Source: Syntrophus aciditrophicus SB (GTDB taxonomy: Bacteria > Desulfobacterota > Syntrophia > Syntrophales > Syntrophaceae). Taken from it: a stretch of DNA of 64,000 nucleotides. The translations under genes and the position numbers were made by a program. Shown here in pieces: positions 29,021 to 38,454 of the stretch. Under the pieces are notes generated by a model. The model was not told the DNA's origin. It ran no database searches and worked only from the letters and a program-made list of their open reading frames with translations. The DNA lies in NCBI RefSeq assembly GCF_000013405.1, contig NC_007759.1, positions 62,001-126,000 of the forward strand. Direction: 5' to 3'. How positions within the stretch are numbered: position 1 is the first letter of the stretch; each line of letters opens with the position of its first letter.

Positions 29021-29869
29021 TTATGCGTTGAGGTAGCTGTGCAGTCCGGGCAGATAATTGACGCCGAGATAGGTGAACAGGACGGAAGCGAAGCCGATGA
29101 CCGCCATGACCGCCATGCGCTTTCCCCGCCAGCCCCGGACGAGGCGGGCATGAAGCATGATGGCGTAAATGATCCAGGTAATCAGGGACCACGTTTCCTT
29201 TGGATCCCAGCTCCAGTAGGAGCCCCAGGCGAAATGGGCCCAGACGGATCCTGTCAGGATGCCCATGGACAAAAAAACAAACCCCAGGACGACGCCCTGA
29301 TAGATCAGAGTATCCAGAGTATCCGGTGAGGGCAGACAGGCACTCCTGTTGTCCGGGCTGTCTTTGTCGGCAGGAACCAGGGGGTGGATGAAATAAATCA
29401 GACCTGAGCCAAAAGCCAGGGTAAAGCTTGCATAGCCCAGAAAGCAGGTTACAACATGGCTGGTCAGCCAGTTGCTCTGCAGGGCAGGAATCAGAGGCTG
29501 GATATTGTTGTCGACGCCGGGAGCGATGGAGGCATAGGCCATGGCCAGAAAGGCGACGGGGATGACAAAGGCGCCCGGAACCCTGTTGGCCGCTTTCCAT
29601 TCCAGAATGAGATAGAGAAAGACAATGCTCCAGGCAAAGAAGACCATGGATTCGTAGAGATTGGACAAGGGGATATGGCCGATCCCCAGGTCGTAGGACA
29701 ACTTCCACCGCCAGACAAGAGCGCAGGACTGCACGGCAAGTCCCACCCAGGCGGTCATGGTCGCCAGCCGACCCCAGAAGGTCTTGCCGAAAACAGTGCG
29801 AAACAGATAAAAAACAAAAGCGGCAAAATAGATGAAAGTTACCCAACTCAGGATCGTCGTATGCGTCAT
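29021..29869 (-). CDS. ccsA: Cytochrome c biogenesis protein CcsA/CcsB type (heme transporter)
   Basis: A 282-residue membrane protein with about eight hydrophobic segments and the tryptophan-rich heme-binding WWD-type motif WGSYWSWDPKETWSL near residue 220. Conserved His residues flank it (HVVTCFLGYASF and IMLHARLVRGW). With ResB it moves heme across the membrane and attaches it to apocytochromes (system II). Its start overlaps the resB stop (ATGA). The neighbouring divergent operon encodes more than 25 heme-binding sites, an obvious client set. Confidence 0.92.
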   Translation of the reverse strand: MTHTTILSWVTFIYFAAFVFYLFRTVFGKTFWGRLATMTAWVGLAVQSCALVWRWKLSYDLGIGHIPLSNLYESMVFFAWSIVFLYLILEWKAANRVPGAFVIPVAFLAMAYASIAPGVDNNIQPLIPALQSNWLTSHVVTCFLGYASFTLAFGSGLIYFIHPLVPADKDSPDNRSACLPSPDTLDTLIYQGVVLGFVFLSMGILTGSVWAHFAWGSYWSWDPKETWSLITWIIYAIMLHARLVRGWRGKRMAVMAVIGFASVLFTYLGVNYLPGLHSYLNA

Positions 29870-31260
29870 ATAGTCATCGCCTTCCTGACCGCGGCGTGAA
29901 GGTTGCGGATCTCCTTTTCAAAAGCCGCCGGATTTCGGTTGCTCATCCCGGTGATGTGGATCGAAGCTCCTTCTCCGTCCGAAAAAATCCAGATCCAGAA
30001 CCGGCGATGGGACATCCAGAAGGTCATCATCAGGCCGGCGATCAGCAGGATGCCGCCCCCCGCCACCAGAGGCACGCCGGGATCCCGGACAACCTGCAGC
30101 CCCGTGCTGTATTTCTGTTCCACCCGGGTGAGAGAAAATTCATAAGGTTTGAAAAGGGCGGGATTGAAAAGGGGCATTTCGTTCAGCAGGCCGGGATTCA
30201 TCTGTTTGATTTCTTCGATATGCCTGAACACCCAGAACTGAACATCCCCCCGGGGCGATGAGATGAGTAATTTGACGGCCGGCCCCATTTCCATGATATT
30301 TTCTTCCACGCGTAAAACCGTTCCCTTTGCCTGGCTGCCGGGCAGTTCAAAGACGTCTCCCTCCGTCAATACCAGTTCCGGCTGCTGCCGTACACCGTTT
30401 CTGGAAAAGGAGAGATGGGCTTTGTTATCCTCTGACATCCCGTAGCTGGACTGATAGAAACGGATCGTCTCGAAAGAAAGAGGATGGTTGACCAGCAGAG
30501 CGCCTTGCCTGATCACCTTTCCGTCCTTGAGAAAGGAAAGATCTGAGCGGTAAGTCTTCGGGGCGCCGTTTTCATGAAATTCCAACGTGAATTTATCGCA
30601 GCGAACGGCAAAGTCGAGTTGCCTGATTCCCCTGCCGCCTTTCAATTCGACTTCCTGTACGGCCTGCCCTTCATCGATGGTGACATAAGCCTCGAACCCA
30701 AAGAGCGAACCGACCACCGCTCCCAGAATAATGATCAGGATGCTCACATGGACCACGTAAACACCCAGATGAGCGAAGCGCCCTTTCTGAGCGAAAAGGA
30801 AGACGCCTCTTTCCGTTTCCTGCCTGTCGACACTCCCCCATCTCTTCCTGGCAAGAGATTCAAGTCTGGAAACGACGGTATCCTTGCCTTCCTTCACGTT
30901 GAAGGTCTGTTCTACGCCTGCGGAGGGAAACAGACCTTCAGGAACGGGAAAACCGGGAGTCCGGATCTTTTTCCATGCTGAGGGGAAACGATTCAGGGAG
31001 CATACGATGAGATTCAGGGACAACAAGCTCATGAGAAGGTAAAAGACTGTGGAATGGTAGATGTCGAGCAACTGGAGCCGCAGCAGCCATTCCGCTGCGG
31101 CAGGCGGCAGGCGATGGAGGAAATCCCCCGCTTCTTGCTGCTGGGGGAGAAACGTTCCCCCAACAGCAAGAAGAGCGATAAGGATCATCAGGACAATCGT
31201 CAGTTTGACGGAGGAAAAGAATGCCCGGACAGGATTTGTTTTTTTTGGCACAAACCGCAC
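29866..31260 (-). CDS. resB: Cytochrome c biogenesis protein ResB/Ccs1
   Basis: A 464-residue partner of CcsA. Membrane segments are at about residues 12-38, 65-90, 160-190 and 400-420, with a large periplasmic domain between the last two. FFSSVKLTIVLMILIALLAVGG at the start and a late LVAGGGILLIAGLMMTFW segment are typical (quoted in part). ResB binds apocytochrome and passes it to the heme site. The GTG at 31260 has little space for a ribosome binding site, so the start is uncertain. It diverges from the cytochrome operon across 330 bases. Confidence 0.9.
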   Translation of the reverse strand: MRFVPKKTNPVRAFFSSVKLTIVLMILIALLAVGGTFLPQQQEAGDFLHRLPPAAAEWLLRLQLLDIYHSTVFYLLMSLLSLNLIVCSLNRFPSAWKKIRTPGFPVPEGLFPSAGVEQTFNVKEGKDTVVSRLESLARKRWGSVDRQETERGVFLFAQKGRFAHLGVYVVHVSILIIILGAVVGSLFGFEAYVTIDEGQAVQEVELKGGRGIRQLDFAVRCDKFTLEFHENGAPKTYRSDLSFLKDGKVIRQGALLVNHPLSFETIRFYQSSYGMSEDNKAHLSFSRNGVRQQPELVLTEGDVFELPGSQAKGTVLRVEENIMEMGPAVKLLISSPRGDVQFWVFRHIEEIKQMNPGLLNEMPLFNPALFKPYEFSLTRVEQKYSTGLQVVRDPGVPLVAGGGILLIAGLMMTFWMSHRRFWIWIFSDGEGASIHITGMSNRNPAAFEKEIRNLHAAVRKAMTI

Positions 31261-31590
31261 TCCCGATGGATGGTTTTGAAAATAAAAGGCGGTTTCGGTT
31301 CCGTTGGCGCCCTAACGATTGAAAATTAACATCAAACGACTCTTACCGCAAGGGTTAGATAGAACCGTGAGTCTGACTGAGTTCTAAAAATTTTCCGCAA
31401 TCGTTCATTTTTTCGTTTGCCGGGGTTATTCTATTGATTTCAGACAAAATCCGTTATAGCATAAATACAACATGGCTCCTGAAACGTACCAGGTTTCGTA
31501 GCGGAAAGGGGCCATCACCCTCGGTCTGAAAACGTTTTCATTGACAGCTCCTTTGATTCCTCTGTCGAAAAGGCAGGAGTATTAAAAAGC
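31261..31590. other. Divergent control region of the cytochrome operon
   Basis: This 330-base AT-richer stretch separates resB from the cytochrome operon and holds no reading frame worth calling. A weak promoter may be TTGATT near 31435 with TAGCAT 17 bases later. A structured element follows at 31472. AGGAG at 31575-31579 is the ribosome binding site for the first cytochrome gene at 31591. Confidence 0.5.
31472..31515 (+). promoter_or_regulatory. Structured 5' leader element, type unknown
   Basis: ATGGCTCC (31472-31479) pairs with GGGGCCAT (31508-31515), and inside it GAAAC pairs with GTTTC, giving a two-stem fold directly behind the possible promoter. It does not match the cyclic-di-GMP, cobalamin or molybdenum riboswitch consensus as I recall them. 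It may be a protein-binding site, an unknown riboswitch or chance. Confidence 0.35.
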
Positions 31591-32826
31591 ATGAAGACGA
31601 ACCGGCTTGTCTCTTTTTTTCTCGTCCTTTTCCTTCTGCCCGCATGGGCTTGGGCGGCTGCAGTCAATCAGTGCATTTCCTGCCATACAGATGATCAAAA
31701 GATGAAGTCCCTGGTCAAACCACCGGCTATCGGCGGCGAAGGCGAGGGGTGAGCGGGGGCGCCTCCGCCCGTGAAGGCGGAAGAGTATTATAAGGGATAC
31801 CTTGTCAACCCTGAACTGTTAGCCAAAGACCCGCATCTTTCCAAGGGATGCGAAACCTGCCACAAGGGCGACAAAAGCGGTGAAACGAAAGAGCAGGCCC
31901 ACGAGGGCATGGTGAAGCGGCCATCGGACAATCTCAAGACCTGCGGCCAATGCCACGGAAAGATCGCCGCCGCCTATGGGAAATCTCTTCATTACACAAC
32001 GATCGGCCAGCGGCAGGGGGTCATGGCAAGGTTTTCCAAGGCGGAACTCAAGATCTTCGACAAGCGCGTCTTCGAACAATCCTGCCGGAGCTGCCACGCC
32101 TCCTGCGGTGGATGTCATGTGAAATCACCACCGGTATCCGGGATCAGCCTCGGCCTGATCCAGGGGCATAAATTTGTCAGGAAGGATGAAGGCAAGACCT
32201 GCGCCTTTTGCCATGGCGGACGTGTCTATCCGGAATATGTGGGCGAATACGGCGGGGCAACGGATGTCCACTACCAGAAAGGAATGATGTGCCTTGACTG
32301 CCACAAGAAACGGGAATTCCACGGCGACGGAAAGAAATATCTCACCAAGCAGGCGGTGAAAGACCGTCCCGCCTGCACGAACTGCCACAAGACGATCAAC
32401 TCGAAGACACTGCTGACAAAGAAGGCCCACAGCGTTCACCGGGGCAAGGTGAGCTGCTACGGCTGCCACTCGGGCGGCCAGTATCGGAACTGTTATGACT
32501 GCCATGAAGGGACGGGTGCTAAGGCGGAGCCAGGTTTTATCCTGGGGAAAAACCCCCGGAACACGAAGGAGGTCACAACACTGCGTGTTATCCCGACTGT
32601 CCGGAATTCCTTTGAGAAGGTGGGAATCCGCATGGAGAAATTCGATGCCCTCCCCAATTACTGGAATTCGCCGGTCCACAATATCCGGAAGCGTACGGAC
32701 CGGACTCGCTCCTGCGATTCATGTCATACGGATCGCACCGGGTTCCTGACGTGGGAAACCCTCCTGAAAGGAGGAGCCAAGGCGAATGAACGGCTGATCC
32801 ACACTCCAAAACCCATAACCCGATAA
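31591..32826 (+). CDS. Eleven-heme c-type cytochrome with in-frame UGA (candidate selenoprotein)
   Basis: ATG 31591 opens a signal peptide (MKTNRLVSFFLVLFLLPAWAWA) and a first heme site CISCH. At codon 54 the frame meets TGA (31750-31752) between GEGEG and AGAPPP, then continues for 357 codons with ten more CxxCH sites and a stop at 32826. The part after the TGA has no signal peptide and no CxxCH-less start of its own, so an exported product needs the UGA read through. A hairpin (31764-31781) fits a bacterial SECIS. Read as selenocysteine, the product is 411 residues and periplasmic. Alternatives are a nonsense mutation or sequencing error. It heads an operon with a 7-heme cytochrome, a rhodanese and a cytochrome b. 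Confidence 0.65.
31750..31781 (+). promoter_or_regulatory. Candidate bacterial SECIS element behind in-frame UGA
   Basis: After the UGA come 11 bases, then TCCGCC (31764-31769), loop CGTGAA, and GGCGGA (31776-31781): a 6-bp stem with a 6-base loop. The loop begins 17 bases after the UGA and has G at its second position. From memory, bacterial SECIS models ask for a loop 16-37 bases from UGA, a stem of at least 4 bp and G in the first two loop positions; this fits all three. A competing stem, GCGGGG with CTCCGC, could also form. Confidence 0.5.
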
Positions 32827-32913: not shown

Positions 32914-34560
32914 ATGGATGCAGTTCGAGGAATGGCATATGCGATCCTGATTGCCGTGCTGGCAATCGCTGTTCAGATTACCTGGGAGAGTCGCGTCCTG
33001 GGAGCAGGCAGTCACGTGGATGTCTGGTTGCGCAATGAAAACGGCGCGAAGATCACCCCCTCGGATAACGAAACCGATCCTTACAGCCCGCGAAAAACAT
33101 GCGGGGCCTGCCACAGCTATGCAACGATCAGCAAAGGGAACCACTTTCAGGGAAAATCTTCAGAGCGCAGAAAAGCGGATTCGTCGGCGCTGCCGGCCGC
33201 TCTGTATCCGGATAACAGAAGCCGTTTTCAGAAAGGCAGCGCCGGGGAGGCGGACTGCCTTGTCTGCCATATGACGGGCTATCGCCTCGATCAGCGCAAC
33301 AGGAGCATCCGGGCGGGGCGGGAGCTTACGGTGCCAACGACTGGAGCGAATCTCGGCGAAATTCAACCGGATCTCAAGTCATCACAGAAGGGCGATCCTG
33401 GAAATCTGTCCCGGCGACCCGCAGTTATCTACCGCTGGGGAAGTCCTGTGTTTACCCGGGATGGCAAATTGTCCGGAACCATCATCCGTCCTTCCGTCAG
33501 TTCGGCCAGTTGCCTGCAGTGCCACGGTGATGACCAGGCGTTTCATACGGCAACCCTGCACAGGGCGGAATACGACGTTCACGTAAGGGTGGGCCTGCGC
33601 TGCACGGACTGCCATGGCCTGGCTGTAAATGTGCCGGGAGGCCGCCTTGCTCACCGGATCGGGCGGGGAAGTTCCGGGCAAAGTGTCGAGAAGACGGGCA
33701 TGAAGACCTGCACGAGCTGTCATCTGGACGGCCTCTACCGATATCGTCCCGGACTTCCGGAGTCGGCGCCGAATCCTCTGGTTGTTCATGCAGCGAAATT
33801 TCCGAAGGCCTCCTTCCATTTCCGACTCCTTTCCTGTACCGCCTGCCACAGCACGGGGCAGCCGGCCAAAGGCGCGTATCTTATGGATGCATCCACCGGT
33901 ACGGTCTCCTGGTACACCGCTGACAACATGTCAGCCGCAGACCGGGGCGCTTTTCGGAAGGCGGCGGAAAAGCCCTGGCCGCCCTGGATTGCCATCCAGG
34001 GCATGAAGGACGGTTCCGGTGAACGCTACACCGCCGCTGTCCCGCACACGGGCCAGTGGTTTGCCGAAAGAACCGGACGGAATACCTTTCGCGCCTTACC
34101 CCCAAATGCAGTTTCCCGAGCATATCAAGCCAGCAGAGGGATCACCTCCGTCGAGGTCAGGGATTCATCCGGCAGGAAGATCCGCCGGGTTACTGTGGCC
34201 ACGGAAGGGGACATGGAAAAGATGCTGCAGGCTCTCCACCGCCTCGGCTACCGAAAGGCCGTCTTTATGGCGGACAAGGTCTATGAATGGAAGGGCGGGA
34301 AGATTGTTTCCTCCGAGCTTCCCTTTGCCAATACCCTGTCTGTTCCCATCTGGCACAATGTGGTTCCCATCGGCAGGAAGCAGACCCTCGGGGCTAAAGA
34401 CTGCAGGGACTGCCACGACGAGAAGGCGCTGTTCTTCGGGAAATTGAAAGTCCGGAGTGTGGGCCGCTTCCTGAAAGAAGATTATCCGAAACCGAAGGCG
34501 CCGAATGCTTCGCCTCAGATGGAGGAATGGGGCATGGAGGAGGTTCCGGCCTATGAATAA
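32914..34560 (+). CDS. Seven-heme c-type cytochrome
   Basis: A 548-residue exported protein: an N-terminal hydrophobic segment (AYAILIAVLAIAVQITW) that may be a signal peptide or anchor, then CxxCH sites CGACH, CLVCH, CLQCH, CTDCH, CTSCH, CTACH and, far downstream, CRDCH. Six hemes cluster in residues 60-330; residues 340-480 have no heme and resemble a separate globular domain (GDMEKMLQALHRLGYRKAVFM); the last heme is near residue 510. A periplasmic electron-transfer or terminal-reductase role is likely, but no known active site is recognised. ATG 32914 follows AAAGAGGCGG. The next gene overlaps its stop. Confidence 0.85.
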   Translation: MDAVRGMAYAILIAVLAIAVQITWESRVLGAGSHVDVWLRNENGAKITPSDNETDPYSPRKTCGACHSYATISKGNHFQGKSSERRKADSSALPAALYPDNRSRFQKGSAGEADCLVCHMTGYRLDQRNRSIRAGRELTVPTTGANLGEIQPDLKSSQKGDPGNLSRRPAVIYRWGSPVFTRDGKLSGTIIRPSVSSASCLQCHGDDQAFHTATLHRAEYDVHVRVGLRCTDCHGLAVNVPGGRLAHRIGRGSSGQSVEKTGMKTCTSCHLDGLYRYRPGLPESAPNPLVVHAAKFPKASFHFRLLSCTACHSTGQPAKGAYLMDASTGTVSWYTADNMSAADRGAFRKAAEKPWPPWIAIQGMKDGSGERYTAAVPHTGQWFAERTGRNTFRALPPNAVSRAYQASRGITSVEVRDSSGRKIRRVTVATEGDMEKMLQALHRLGYRKAVFMADKVYEWKGGKIVSSELPFANTLSVPIWHNVVPIGRKQTLGAKDCRDCHDEKALFFGKLKVRSVGRFLKEDYPKPKAPNASPQMEEWGMEEVPAYE

Positions 34561-35335
34561 TCGAATTCACGAGGATGTGCTGATCAATGCTTTGCAGGTA
34601 AGGTGGCTGATACCCCTACTCCTTGCTGCAGGACTGTGCCTTCAGGGGAACACAGCGTATGCCGCGGGCTGGAAGATTGTAGATGCCGCGACCCTTTACA
34701 GCTGGATGCAGACTGAAGCGGAAAAGGTCACCCTCATCAATGTCATGAGCCGCATCGAATGCCTGGATCATCGGATTCCCGGATCTTTATGCATTGCCTG
34801 TGAGGAATTCGACAAACGTCTGTCCGAAGTTCCTCGGGAGGGGAAAGTCATCCTTTACTGCGAAAGTGACGCGTGCATCCGAAGCTGTCAAGCCGGTGAT
34901 TTGGCCGTGCGCAAAGGGTTCACCAACATCTATGTGCTGAAAGGGGGAATGCCCGCCTGGAAACAGGCGGGATATGCCCTTGAATCCCGTGACCGGATCG
35001 CCCGCGTACCCATCCGGTCCGTGAAGGCTCAGGAACTTGAAAACTGGCGGGGTATCCATCAGGACGCACTGATCCTGGACATCCGTTCCGAGGCGGCCTA
35101 CAGCGAGAGCTTTTTGCCGGGAGCAGTGAACATACCCCTGTATCAGCTTCACAAAAGATACAGGGAACTTCCGGAGCGCCGTCTCATCCTGATCGTGGAT
35201 GATCAGGGATTTCGGTCCTTTATCGCAGGAAGTTATCTCTTCCATAAAGGGTTTCACGACATAAACCGACTCTTTGGCGGCATGAAGGCGGTGAATGCCA
35301 TCAAAGGGAAAAAAGCAGGGAAAACAGGCCAATGA
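34553..35335 (+). CDS. Periplasmic tandem rhodanese, second domain inactive
   Basis: A 260-residue protein with a signal peptide (LIPLLLAAGLCLQGNTAYA) and two rhodanese-like domains. The first has the active-site loop YCESDACIRS with the catalytic Cys at its head; the second has VDDQGFRS at the same place, so its catalytic Cys is Asp and it is probably structural. Rhodaneses move sulfane sulfur or bind selenium and tellurium species. ATG 34553 overlaps the preceding stop, and its own stop overlaps the cytochrome b start (ATGA), so all three are translationally coupled. The longer frame to 34505 lies inside the previous gene and is unlikely. Confidence 0.87.
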   Translation: MNNRIHEDVLINALQVRWLIPLLLAAGLCLQGNTAYAAGWKIVDAATLYSWMQTEAEKVTLINVMSRIECLDHRIPGSLCIACEEFDKRLSEVPREGKVILYCESDACIRSCQAGDLAVRKGFTNIYVLKGGMPAWKQAGYALESRDRIARVPIRSVKAQELENWRGIHQDALILDIRSEAAYSESFLPGAVNIPLYQLHKRYRELPERRLILIVDDQGFRSFIAGSYLFHKGFHDINRLFGGMKAVNAIKGKKAGKTGQ

Positions 35336-37185
35336 AAAATTCGCGGTTATGTGGAAAAATTCTGGTTCCGGCGTTGACGCTCTTCTTGAGCCTTCTCTAT
35401 CATACTGCCGATGCAGCCGTTTCGCGGACCTGCCAGGGCTGCCATGATGACCCGAAATTCCAGGCGGCCTTTAACTCTTCGGTCCACGGCAGCAACGGCT
35501 GCCGGAGCTGTCACGCCGACATCCGGAACCTGGACCGCCACATGACGGGGCAGGACAAGCCCGTGCCCGTTTCCTGTGCGTCCTGCCACCAGCAGATCGC
35601 CGGGGAATACCGCGCCAATTTCCATTACCTTCAGGAGGATTTCCGCTGTGTCGACTGCCATCGGGACATTCATAACCGGCAGCGGGCAGGCAGGGATATT
35701 AAGCGTCGGACCATCGAACAATGCACGGCCTGTCATTCCAACGAGGAATACGTGGCTTCGGGCCATGCGGAAGCCGTTCTCAAGGGAAATATGGATGCGG
35801 CGGATTGCGGCGATTGTCACGGCCTCCACGACACACGGGTTTACCACACCTCCCTGGAAAAGTATCCCGCTGAAGCCAGAAATTTCTATACCCAGAAGTG
35901 CAACCGCTGCCACGCAGACAGGGCCATGATGAAGCGAAACAACCTATCCCCGGACATGGTCAGGCTGTACGAAGAGACTTACCACGGCAAGGTCCGCGGT
36001 GTCGGCCAGGCCACACTGGTCGCCGGGTGCGCCGACTGCCACCGGACCCACAACATCCTGCCGAAAACAGACCCCCGTTCCAGCATCCATCCCAGCCATC
36101 TCGTCGAGAACTGCGGGCGCTGCCATCAGGGATTTCATCCGCGATTCGTGGAATACAAGGCCCATCCGGACTATCGGGACAAGGAACGATATCCCGCCCT
36201 CTACTGGGCCTTTGTCTTCATGTCCGGCCTCCTGATCTTCACGTTCTCCTTTTTCTGGATCCACACAGCTCTCTGGTGGCGAAAAAGTTATTGGGAAAAG
36301 CACGCCCGGGAAAAGAGCGGCCTCCTTTCGGAGGTATGCGAAATAGCTCCGGAGGGCTATCAGCACATCCAACGGTTCTCTTTCCAGGAAAGGTTTCTGC
36401 ATTTCTTTCTGATTCTGTCCTTTTTCACCCTTGTAACGACGGGTTTCCCCTTGAAATATCATTCCACCGACTGGGCCAGGGCCTTTATCCGCCTGTGGGG
36501 AGGCGCTGAGTCGGCTGGGCTCTGGCACCGCATCGCCGCGGGGGTTCTGATGCTGATCGTGGCCTATGTCTTCGTTCTGTCCTGCCGCTTCCTCTTCTCC
36601 GGGGGACAGGGCAAGGGGGAATGGAAAGAACGTCTTTTCGGCCCTGATTCCCTGTTTCCTCGGAAGAAGGACTGGGAAGACATGAAAGGGATGTTCCTGT
36701 GGTTCTTCAATAGAGGGCCGAAGCCCCGCTTCGACCGCTGGACCTACTGGGAAAAGTTCGACTTCTGGGCGGTCTTCTGGGGGATGTTTGCCATCGGCGG
36801 CTCCGGCCTTCTGCTCTGGAAGCCGGAGTGGTCTTCCTGGATCGTACCCGGGTGGGTTCTGAATGTGGCGACGATCATCCATTCCGAGGAGGCCCTCCTG
36901 GCAGCTCTCTTCATCTTTACCGTTCACTTCTTCAATACCCACTTCGTTCCGGACAAGTTCCCCATGGATCGCCTGATTTTCACGGGCACTTACTCCCTGA
37001 ACGAACTGCAGCGGGAGCGCCCCCTTGCGTATGAGCGTCTCATGGCGGAACAGAGGCTCGATTCTCTGAAGCGGGAGCACCCCAGTATACCGCTGAAGCT
37101 CATCTCTGCCGTTATCGGTCTGGGAAGCCTCCTTCTGGGGCTGACCATCACGGCCCTGATCTATTGGGTGATCGTTTCCGGATGA
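35332..37185 (+). CDS. Nine-heme cytochrome c / cytochrome b membrane fusion
   Basis: A 617-residue protein. After a signal peptide come nine CxxCH sites in residues 30-270 (CQGCH, CRSCH, CASCH, CVDCH, CTACH, CGDCH, CNRCH, CADCH, CGRCH). Then a membrane domain with about five helices (starting AFVFMSGLLIFTFSFFWIH) carries His residues placed like a cytochrome b561-type quinol site (RFLHFFLILSF, LWHRIAAGVL, IHSEEALLAALFIFTVHFFNTHF). It most likely exchanges electrons between menaquinone and periplasmic cytochromes encoded upstream. The arrangement resembles b-type cytochrome subunits of multiheme redox loci. A 345-base gap separates it from the next rhodanese gene. Confidence 0.88.
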   Translation: MKNSRLCGKILVPALTLFLSLLYHTADAAVSRTCQGCHDDPKFQAAFNSSVHGSNGCRSCHADIRNLDRHMTGQDKPVPVSCASCHQQIAGEYRANFHYLQEDFRCVDCHRDIHNRQRAGRDIKRRTIEQCTACHSNEEYVASGHAEAVLKGNMDAADCGDCHGLHDTRVYHTSLEKYPAEARNFYTQKCNRCHADRAMMKRNNLSPDMVRLYEETYHGKVRGVGQATLVAGCADCHRTHNILPKTDPRSSIHPSHLVENCGRCHQGFHPRFVEYKAHPDYRDKERYPALYWAFVFMSGLLIFTFSFFWIHTALWWRKSYWEKHAREKSGLLSEVCEIAPEGYQHIQRFSFQERFLHFFLILSFFTLVTTGFPLKYHSTDWARAFIRLWGGAESAGLWHRIAAGVLMLIVAYVFVLSCRFLFSGGQGKGEWKERLFGPDSLFPRKKDWEDMKGMFLWFFNRGPKPRFDRWTYWEKFDFWAVFWGMFAIGGSGLLLWKPEWSSWIVPGWVLNVATIIHSEEALLAALFIFTVHFFNTHFVPDKFPMDRLIFTGTYSLNELQRERPLAYERLMAEQRLDSLKREHPSIPLKLISAVIGLGSLLLGLTITALIYWVIVSG

Positions 37186-37530: not shown

Positions 37531-38454
37531 ATGAAAAAGATTAAATATTTTTCACTTCTCTTGATTGTTTTCCTTTTCTTGCCCCTGGCAGCGATTGCCC
37601 AGGAGTTTTCTCCGGTCGTGTCGACCGATTGGCTCCAGCAGAATCTTGATAATCCAAAAGTAATCATCGTGGATATCCGGAAAGTTGAAGACTATCGGGC
37701 AGGCCACATTCCCGGCGCAATCAGCATGTTCTATGGGACCTGGGCGATAAAAAAGGGTGAATTGGACAACCAGCTTCCGGAGGATGATGAACTCATCGAT
37801 TTATTGAGTTCCGCGGGCATCAGTCCTGACTCGATTGTTGTTGTAGCTGGGACTACGGAATCAGGTCCCGACCGGGTCAACACAACCCGGGTTGCCTGGA
37901 CGCTGAAATACGCCGGGGTTAAAACCGTCGGCATCCTCGACGGGGGGCATACCAAGTGGATGGTAAGGGAAAAACGGGCCGTGTCGACAGAGGCCGTAAA
38001 GCCGAAGGCAAAGCCCTACCGCGGGAAATTTGACAAGAATCTTCTGGCTAAAAAAGACTATGTCATGAGTCAACTGGGGAAAGCCTTGATTGTGGATGTC
38101 CGGGAGCCGGAATTTTTCAGCGGCACAAACAAGCTTCCCTTTGTCGCAAAGGCGGGCAGAATCGCAGGGGCGGTCAATCTCCCGACAGCACAAGTGTTCG
38201 AGAAGTATCCGCCGGGTGAACATCTTGAAACCTGCTGCTATACCTTGAAAGACAAGGCGCAATTGAAAAATATGGCTTCCGGCGTTGTGGGCAGCGATCT
38301 ATCCCGGGAGATCATCGTTTACTGTGATTCGGGACGGGTAGCCAGCATGTGGTGGTTCATTCTGCATGATGTCCTCGGATACACAAACGTCAGGAATTAC
38401 GACGGCTCCATGCAGGAATGGGCAAAAGATCCGAACGCAAAGATGGAACCGTGA
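37531..38454 (+). CDS. Periplasmic two-domain thiosulfate sulfurtransferase (rhodanese)
   Basis: A 307-residue protein with a clear signal peptide (MKKIKYFSLLLIVFLFLPLAAIA). Residues 35-150 form an N-terminal rhodanese domain (VIIVDIRKVEDYRAGHIPGA) without a catalytic Cys (VVVAGTTESGPD at the loop); residues 180-305 form the catalytic domain with active-site loop VYCDSGRVAS. This inactive-then-active order is that of classical rhodaneses, opposite to the tandem rhodanese upstream. An insertion near residues 225-250 contains two adjacent Cys (ETCCYTL). ATG 37531 follows AAGGAGG. A strong terminator follows at 38567. Confidence 0.9.
   Translation: MKKIKYFSLLLIVFLFLPLAAIAQEFSPVVSTDWLQQNLDNPKVIIVDIRKVEDYRAGHIPGAISMFYGTWAIKKGELDNQLPEDDELIDLLSSAGISPDSIVVVAGTTESGPDRVNTTRVAWTLKYAGVKTVGILDGGHTKWMVREKRAVSTEAVKPKAKPYRGKFDKNLLAKKDYVMSQLGKALIVDVREPEFFSGTNKLPFVAKAGRIAGAVNLPTAQVFEKYPPGEHLETCCYTLKDKAQLKNMASGVVGSDLSREIIVYCDSGRVASMWWFILHDVLGYTNVRNYDGSMQEWAKDPNAKMEP

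Follow-up and report, generated by a model that had tools for sequence, protein, structure and literature searches.

A predicted selenocysteine between the first two hemes of an 11-heme cytochrome c family spread across the Desulfobacterota

The window, i.e., the whole stretch of 64,000 nucleotides that we analyzed, lies in the complete, single-contig genome of Syntrophus aciditrophicus (3,179,300 bases). It contains a TGA codon within what otherwise resembles one gene for an exported multiheme cytochrome c, and the question is whether this codon terminates translation or is read as selenocysteine (Sec). The frame runs from an ATG at 31591 to a TAA at 32824, the TGA is its sole internal stop, and readthrough would give 411 residues with 11 CxxCH motifs, one of them N-terminal and ten C-terminal of the TGA. 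The first-pass annotation of this DNA had described a signal peptide, one CxxCH, the TGA and ten more CxxCH motifs in a single frame, and our analysis of open reading frames (ORFs) confirms this arrangement. The absence of stops downstream of the TGA goes beyond chance, in that none of 5000 shuffles remained open. An automatic gene caller would begin at a GTG at 31771 and report a 351-aa ORF without the export signal. Comparison of homologous sequences leads us to a different conclusion: the locus very probably encodes one exported cytochrome c with 11 hemes and with Sec inserted at UGA 54, and this protein would represent a phylum-wide selenoprotein family.

Table 1. Features of the selenocytochrome locus, in window coordinates.
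Feature	Position	Strand	Basis or remark
CcsA, cytochrome c assembly	29021..29869	-	PF01578
ResB, cytochrome c biogenesis; divergent neighbor recurring in relatives	29866..31260	-	PF05140
Selenocytochrome gene	31591..32826	+	Signal peptide, 11 CxxCH, predicted Sec at residue 54
Signal peptide region (residues 1-23)	31591..31659	+	Hydrophobic N terminus
In-frame UGA, predicted to be read as Sec (U54), motif GEG-U-AGAPPP	31750..31752	+	TGA in 100/104 homologs
SECIS-like hairpin: stem 31764-31769/31776-31781, loop 31770-31775 (CGUGAA)	31764..31781	+	Folding, homolog comparison
Companion 7-heme cytochrome c, hydrophobic N terminus (Cyt548)	32914..34560	+	Syntenic in many relatives
Two-domain rhodanese, export-like N terminus (Rhod276)	34505..35335	+	PF00581, syntenic
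Membrane cytochrome, 9 CxxCH and b561-type domain (CytB617)	35332..37185	+	PF01292, cytochrome c7/c3 matches
Two-domain rhodanese with signal peptide (Rhod307)	37531..38454	+	Domain matches, synteny

We assembled 104 non-redundant full-length homologs from searches of the order, the class, the phylum and contigs of named genomes, and assigned the column of the TGA after profile alignment. In 100 of them, from across the phylum, TGA occupies exactly the same column; the nearest relatives include a Syntrophus metagenome-assembled genome (MAG) at ~81% identity, and the most distant groups are at ~31-34% identity. Coding is conserved on either side of the UGA, with G53 invariant and G56 present in 93% of homologs, within motifs that differ by subfamily (GEG-U-AGAPPPV, GEG-U-GGxxAPLEP and VAG-U-GVSAPQVRG). 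The remaining four homologs carry ordinary codons, namely GCA for Ala (L130), CCC for Pro (L057), TGG for Trp (L083) and TAC for Tyr (L160). Neither TAA nor TAG occurs in this column among the 104 homologs, so TGA is the only stop found there, and no homolog has a Cys codon. The first-pass annotation had recommended looking in relatives for UGA or a Cys codon at this place, and only the former was found. On a quick FastTree tree, which has some long branches and was built without the Sec column, the four ordinary codons are four separate tip changes, and they look like separate losses of Sec. The members with Ala, Pro, Trp or Tyr imply that Sec chemistry can be dispensed with. In the homolog with TGG (L083, 8030-9667), the downstream hairpin GGCUCC-GUU-GGAGCC is nevertheless intact, which suggests that Sec was lost recently. 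In Smithella-like genomes (L016, L018, L021, L037, L041, L046 and L047), the frame is longer (~605 codons) and has extra N-terminal heme motifs, seemingly through fusion to another multiheme part.

The SECIS-like hairpin of the window is as previously described, with a stem of 6 bp and a loop that starts 17 nt past the UGA and has G as its second base. In the near group of homologs, it takes the form UCCGCC-xGUxxx-GGCGGA and starts 11 nt after the UGA. Compensated changes in this stem include UCCUCC/GGAGGA in L031 and UCCGGC/GCCGGA in L090 and L022. The distant group has a different, 7-bp stem, UGGCUCC-GUU-GGAGCCA, at the same distance from the UGA, with variants UGGAGCC-GUU-GGCUCCG and UAACUCC-GUU-GGAGUUA. 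The near-group stem is 94% paired, with 4 cells changed on both sides, and the distant-group stem has 13 double-change cells; for each, none of 500 shuffles scored as high, although such controls do not fully remove relatedness among the sequences. It is hard to explain two different covarying stems, in two groups and at one position, other than by SECIS function. The GU of the loop is retained in both groups despite falling in different codons, and the stem-paired third base of codon +8 is G in all 69 distinct near-group sequences, while this codon encodes six amino acids across the first 46 sequences. A stem of at least 6 bp with G in loop position 1 or 2 is found at 67 of the 100 TGA sites, versus 3.2% of 36,074 control codons taken from the same genes. 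For the 46-nt RNA of the window alone, the minimum-energy fold differs from the SECIS stem, which is present in the centroid, and the folding energy is unremarkable (z -0.5); single-sequence energies are not significant in the near group. The support for the hairpin therefore comes from comparison. Searches of the genome with the Rfam model SECIS_1 (RF00031), and of positions 31500-32000 with Rfam, gave no SECIS match, but RF00031 matched no control genome either, so this result is not informative. The family thus combines features by which selenoproteins are recognized: an in-frame UGA in a conserved column, coding conservation on both sides, and a hairpin just downstream that has a covarying stem and G within the first two loop bases.

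We also searched the genome, family by family, for the Sec machinery. The genes whose presence the first-pass annotation had suggested checking are there: selA (615 bits), selB (373.6 bits), selD (380 bits) and tRNA-Sec (77 bits) all score above their cut-offs. The selD gene (G000:C1:1086624-1087553, L080) itself has an in-frame TGA and corresponds to the known Sec form of SelD. We found selB in 94 of 100 relatives searched and in 37 of 41 further or key genomes, and its presence is therefore necessary rather than distinctive, and discriminates little. A few MAGs have the TGA gene and no selB that we could find (G093, G186, G412 and G431); the missing cases are draft genomes.

Several other readings of the UGA must be weighed against Sec. 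A priori, the TGA could have arisen by nonsense mutation or by a read error in this one genome, and the gene would then be a pseudogene or else intact without the stop; frameshifted copies of the gene do occur in a few MAGs (e.g., L054 and L056). However, the identical TGA recurs in independent assemblies from the whole phylum, with coding conserved on both sides. Because of this conservation, the caveat of mutation or read error in the first-pass annotation can be considered refuted, and we give it a negligible probability. Internal initiation at GTG 31771, such that the locus encodes two proteins, is equally improbable: the 351-aa ORF does exist, but its product would lack the signal peptide region, and consequently heme attachment on the outside would fail. 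Moreover, relatives preserve the protein sequence (AGAPPP) encoded between the UGA and the GTG.

It might instead be supposed that the UGA is a conserved true stop or is read through with an amino acid other than Sec (e.g., near-cognate Trp), so that translation would yield a short peptide with a single heme plus some product of full length. The TGG of L083 and the fact that the replacement codons are never Cys would agree with this. However, if the site encoded Trp, TGG should have arisen far more often than once, and the restriction of stops in the column to TGA is also contrary to this idea. Compensatory changes have preserved the GU-loop hairpin at a constant spacing, selB is found in nearly all hosts, and we regard such decoding as very unlikely, if slightly less so than the previous two readings. 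Readthrough with Sec, as the first-pass annotation had proposed, is strongly supported by the combination of a TGA conserved throughout the phylum, a covarying hairpin and a full Sec machinery. SelB and tRNA-Sec would then decode UGA 54, with the hairpin acting as SECIS.

The resulting protein has the attributes of a multiheme cytochrome c, i.e., an export signal, multiple CxxCH motifs and distal His residues. All of its Cys residues are inside CxxCH motifs, so residue 54 is the sole free chalcogen position (Cys or Sec). This residue is located between hemes 1 and 2, in a probably flexible Gly-rich or Gly-Pro loop. The homolog alignment contains nine near-invariant additional His for 11 hemes, and so up to two hemes might be without a conserved distal His. 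An AlphaFold model has a mean pLDDT of 73.5, and its Sec loop is below 50, which means that placement of Sec near a heme cannot be claimed. Comparison of the model to the PDB with Foldseek and VIA-align gave no match.

The surrounding genes offer clues to function. Both rhodaneses of the window open with export-like segments, and the membrane cytochrome CytB617 probably provides a connection to the electron pool of the membrane. Of the 97 Sec members that are testable, 77 have a rhodanese gene directly downstream of the selenocytochrome, distant groups included, where testable means that there is enough flanking sequence (13 of the 20 without an adjacent rhodanese had at most 1.5 kb of flank). 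In most relatives, the directly following gene is of the Rhod307 type. In the window, the rhodaneses are further down the same gene run, not adjacent to the selenocytochrome. The homolog with Tyr in place of Sec (L160, 255-2387) is a 711-aa fusion of the cytochrome and a rhodanese (sulfurtransferase). The rhodaneses beside the cytochrome had been remarked on in the first-pass annotation, and these data establish that the link is real and general. An apparent second cytochrome-rhodanese fusion (L177) is in a gene that is cut by a contig end. We also considered whether the adjacent rhodanese is lost together with Sec, and rejected this idea: there are only four non-Sec members, of which one has an adjacent rhodanese and one is fused, and the window's gene itself is non-adjacent.

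Our favored, though tentative, proposal for the role is a transfer of sulfane sulfur (or selenium) from the rhodanese to Sec, followed by its reduction or oxidation by the hemes. Under this proposal, Sec on its flexible Gly-rich loop would accept the sulfur (or selenium) atom from a partner periplasmic rhodanese, and sulfur would be held as a selenenyl-sulfide. The heme chain, in which one or two hemes may be open, would then reduce (or oxidize) the bound sulfur, and the membrane b/c cytochrome would feed or drain the chain. A resemblance to octaheme tetrathionate reductase (Otr) from heme 3 onward fits such sulfur-compound chemistry. The broader idea of a new, phylum-wide Sec chemistry, in which a selenenyl-sulfide formed with sulfur from a dedicated periplasmic rhodanese is wired to hemes and Cys is unable to substitute, is more doubtful. 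It is also conceivable, if rather unlikely, that Sec is real and the role is selenite or tellurite reduction, as proposed for ExtKL. ExtKL provides a precedent: this Sec-containing multiheme cytochrome is encoded close to the rhodanese ExtH, and the porin of the same cluster, ExtI, is required for normal selenite and tellurite reduction (PMC5877670). There are also parts weakly similar to ExtM, ExtN and ExtH. However, the window's protein and ExtKL differ in family and in the position of Sec, and we did not come across an ExtI-like porin here.

These results add a selenoprotein family that is widespread and that standard annotation would break up or shorten, at the cost of the signal peptide. 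The family occurs in syntrophs and their relatives, in which electron transfer is a central question. Cys homologs are usual, though not obligatory, for bacterial selenoproteins. It is likely that the lack of Cys homologs is one reason for which homology-based searches overlooked this family; its escape from such filters corresponds to a blind spot acknowledged for deep-Sep, which may fail to detect selenoproteins that have no Cys homologs (PMC12013277). Alongside ExtKL and Sec-containing Otr, the family suggests that Sec is used generally next to hemes for chalcogen chemistry.

With regard to known selenoproteins, a 2006 census listed 19 for S. aciditrophicus, with no cytochrome among them (PMC1794560), and we found no description of the selenocytochrome family in the open-access literature that we searched. 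A 2026 inventory, which covers 119 families and subfamilies, includes three that are heme-related: ExtKL, the GSU2204 family and a form of the Otr family (PMC13188914). The window's protein matches none of the models for these three, including that of the GSU2204 family CXXCH protein (NF041027), and no NCBIfam model fits it. The similarity to ExtKL (NF040886, Geobacter) consists of multiple hemes, one predicted Sec, occurrence in the same phylum search and a rhodanese in the cluster. In contrast, ExtKL has five hemes N-terminal of Sec and none after it, with the motif GHxIPDGUPTPNR, where the window's protein has one before and ten after. It had no match to NF040886 up to an E-value of 10, and we found no ExtKL in the genome. 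In another genome (G181:C12:96118-98740), two ExtKL-family genes in tandem lack TGA and score over the NF040886 cut-off, and that genome also has a copy with TGA.

The similarity to Otr (TIGR04315) goes further. A profile comparison aligns the two over 188 columns, from heme 3 of the window's protein onward, with a probability of 98%, a type of score that is inflated by CxxCH patterns. Otr forms with Sec likewise have it between hemes 1 and 2. However, Otr has 8 hemes rather than 11, its Sec/Cys pair is in the motif NNF(U/C)I, and the Sec in the window's protein is upstream of the matching region. The window's protein does not match TIGR04315, and the best of the members scanned reached 37.8 bits versus a cut-off of 375. 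The Sec form of Otr is listed as annotated in GenBank (PMC13188914). Among the Otr-family cytochromes of the phylum, many carry a single in-frame TGA within the motif NNF-U-I (L197, L200, L201, L205, L207, L209, L213 and L214) and others have Cys there (e.g., L195), which is a clear and apparently common Sec/Cys pair in a known family.

With other bacterial selenoproteins, such as FdhA, HdrA and SelD, the window's protein shares the UGA, a close downstream SECIS-like hairpin with G in the loop, and the SelABCD machinery. Most of these have Cys homologs, in contrast to the present family. Multiheme selenocytochromes are therefore a known kind of protein; as far as we have tested, it is this selenocytochrome family, the position of its Sec and its lack of Cys forms that are new.
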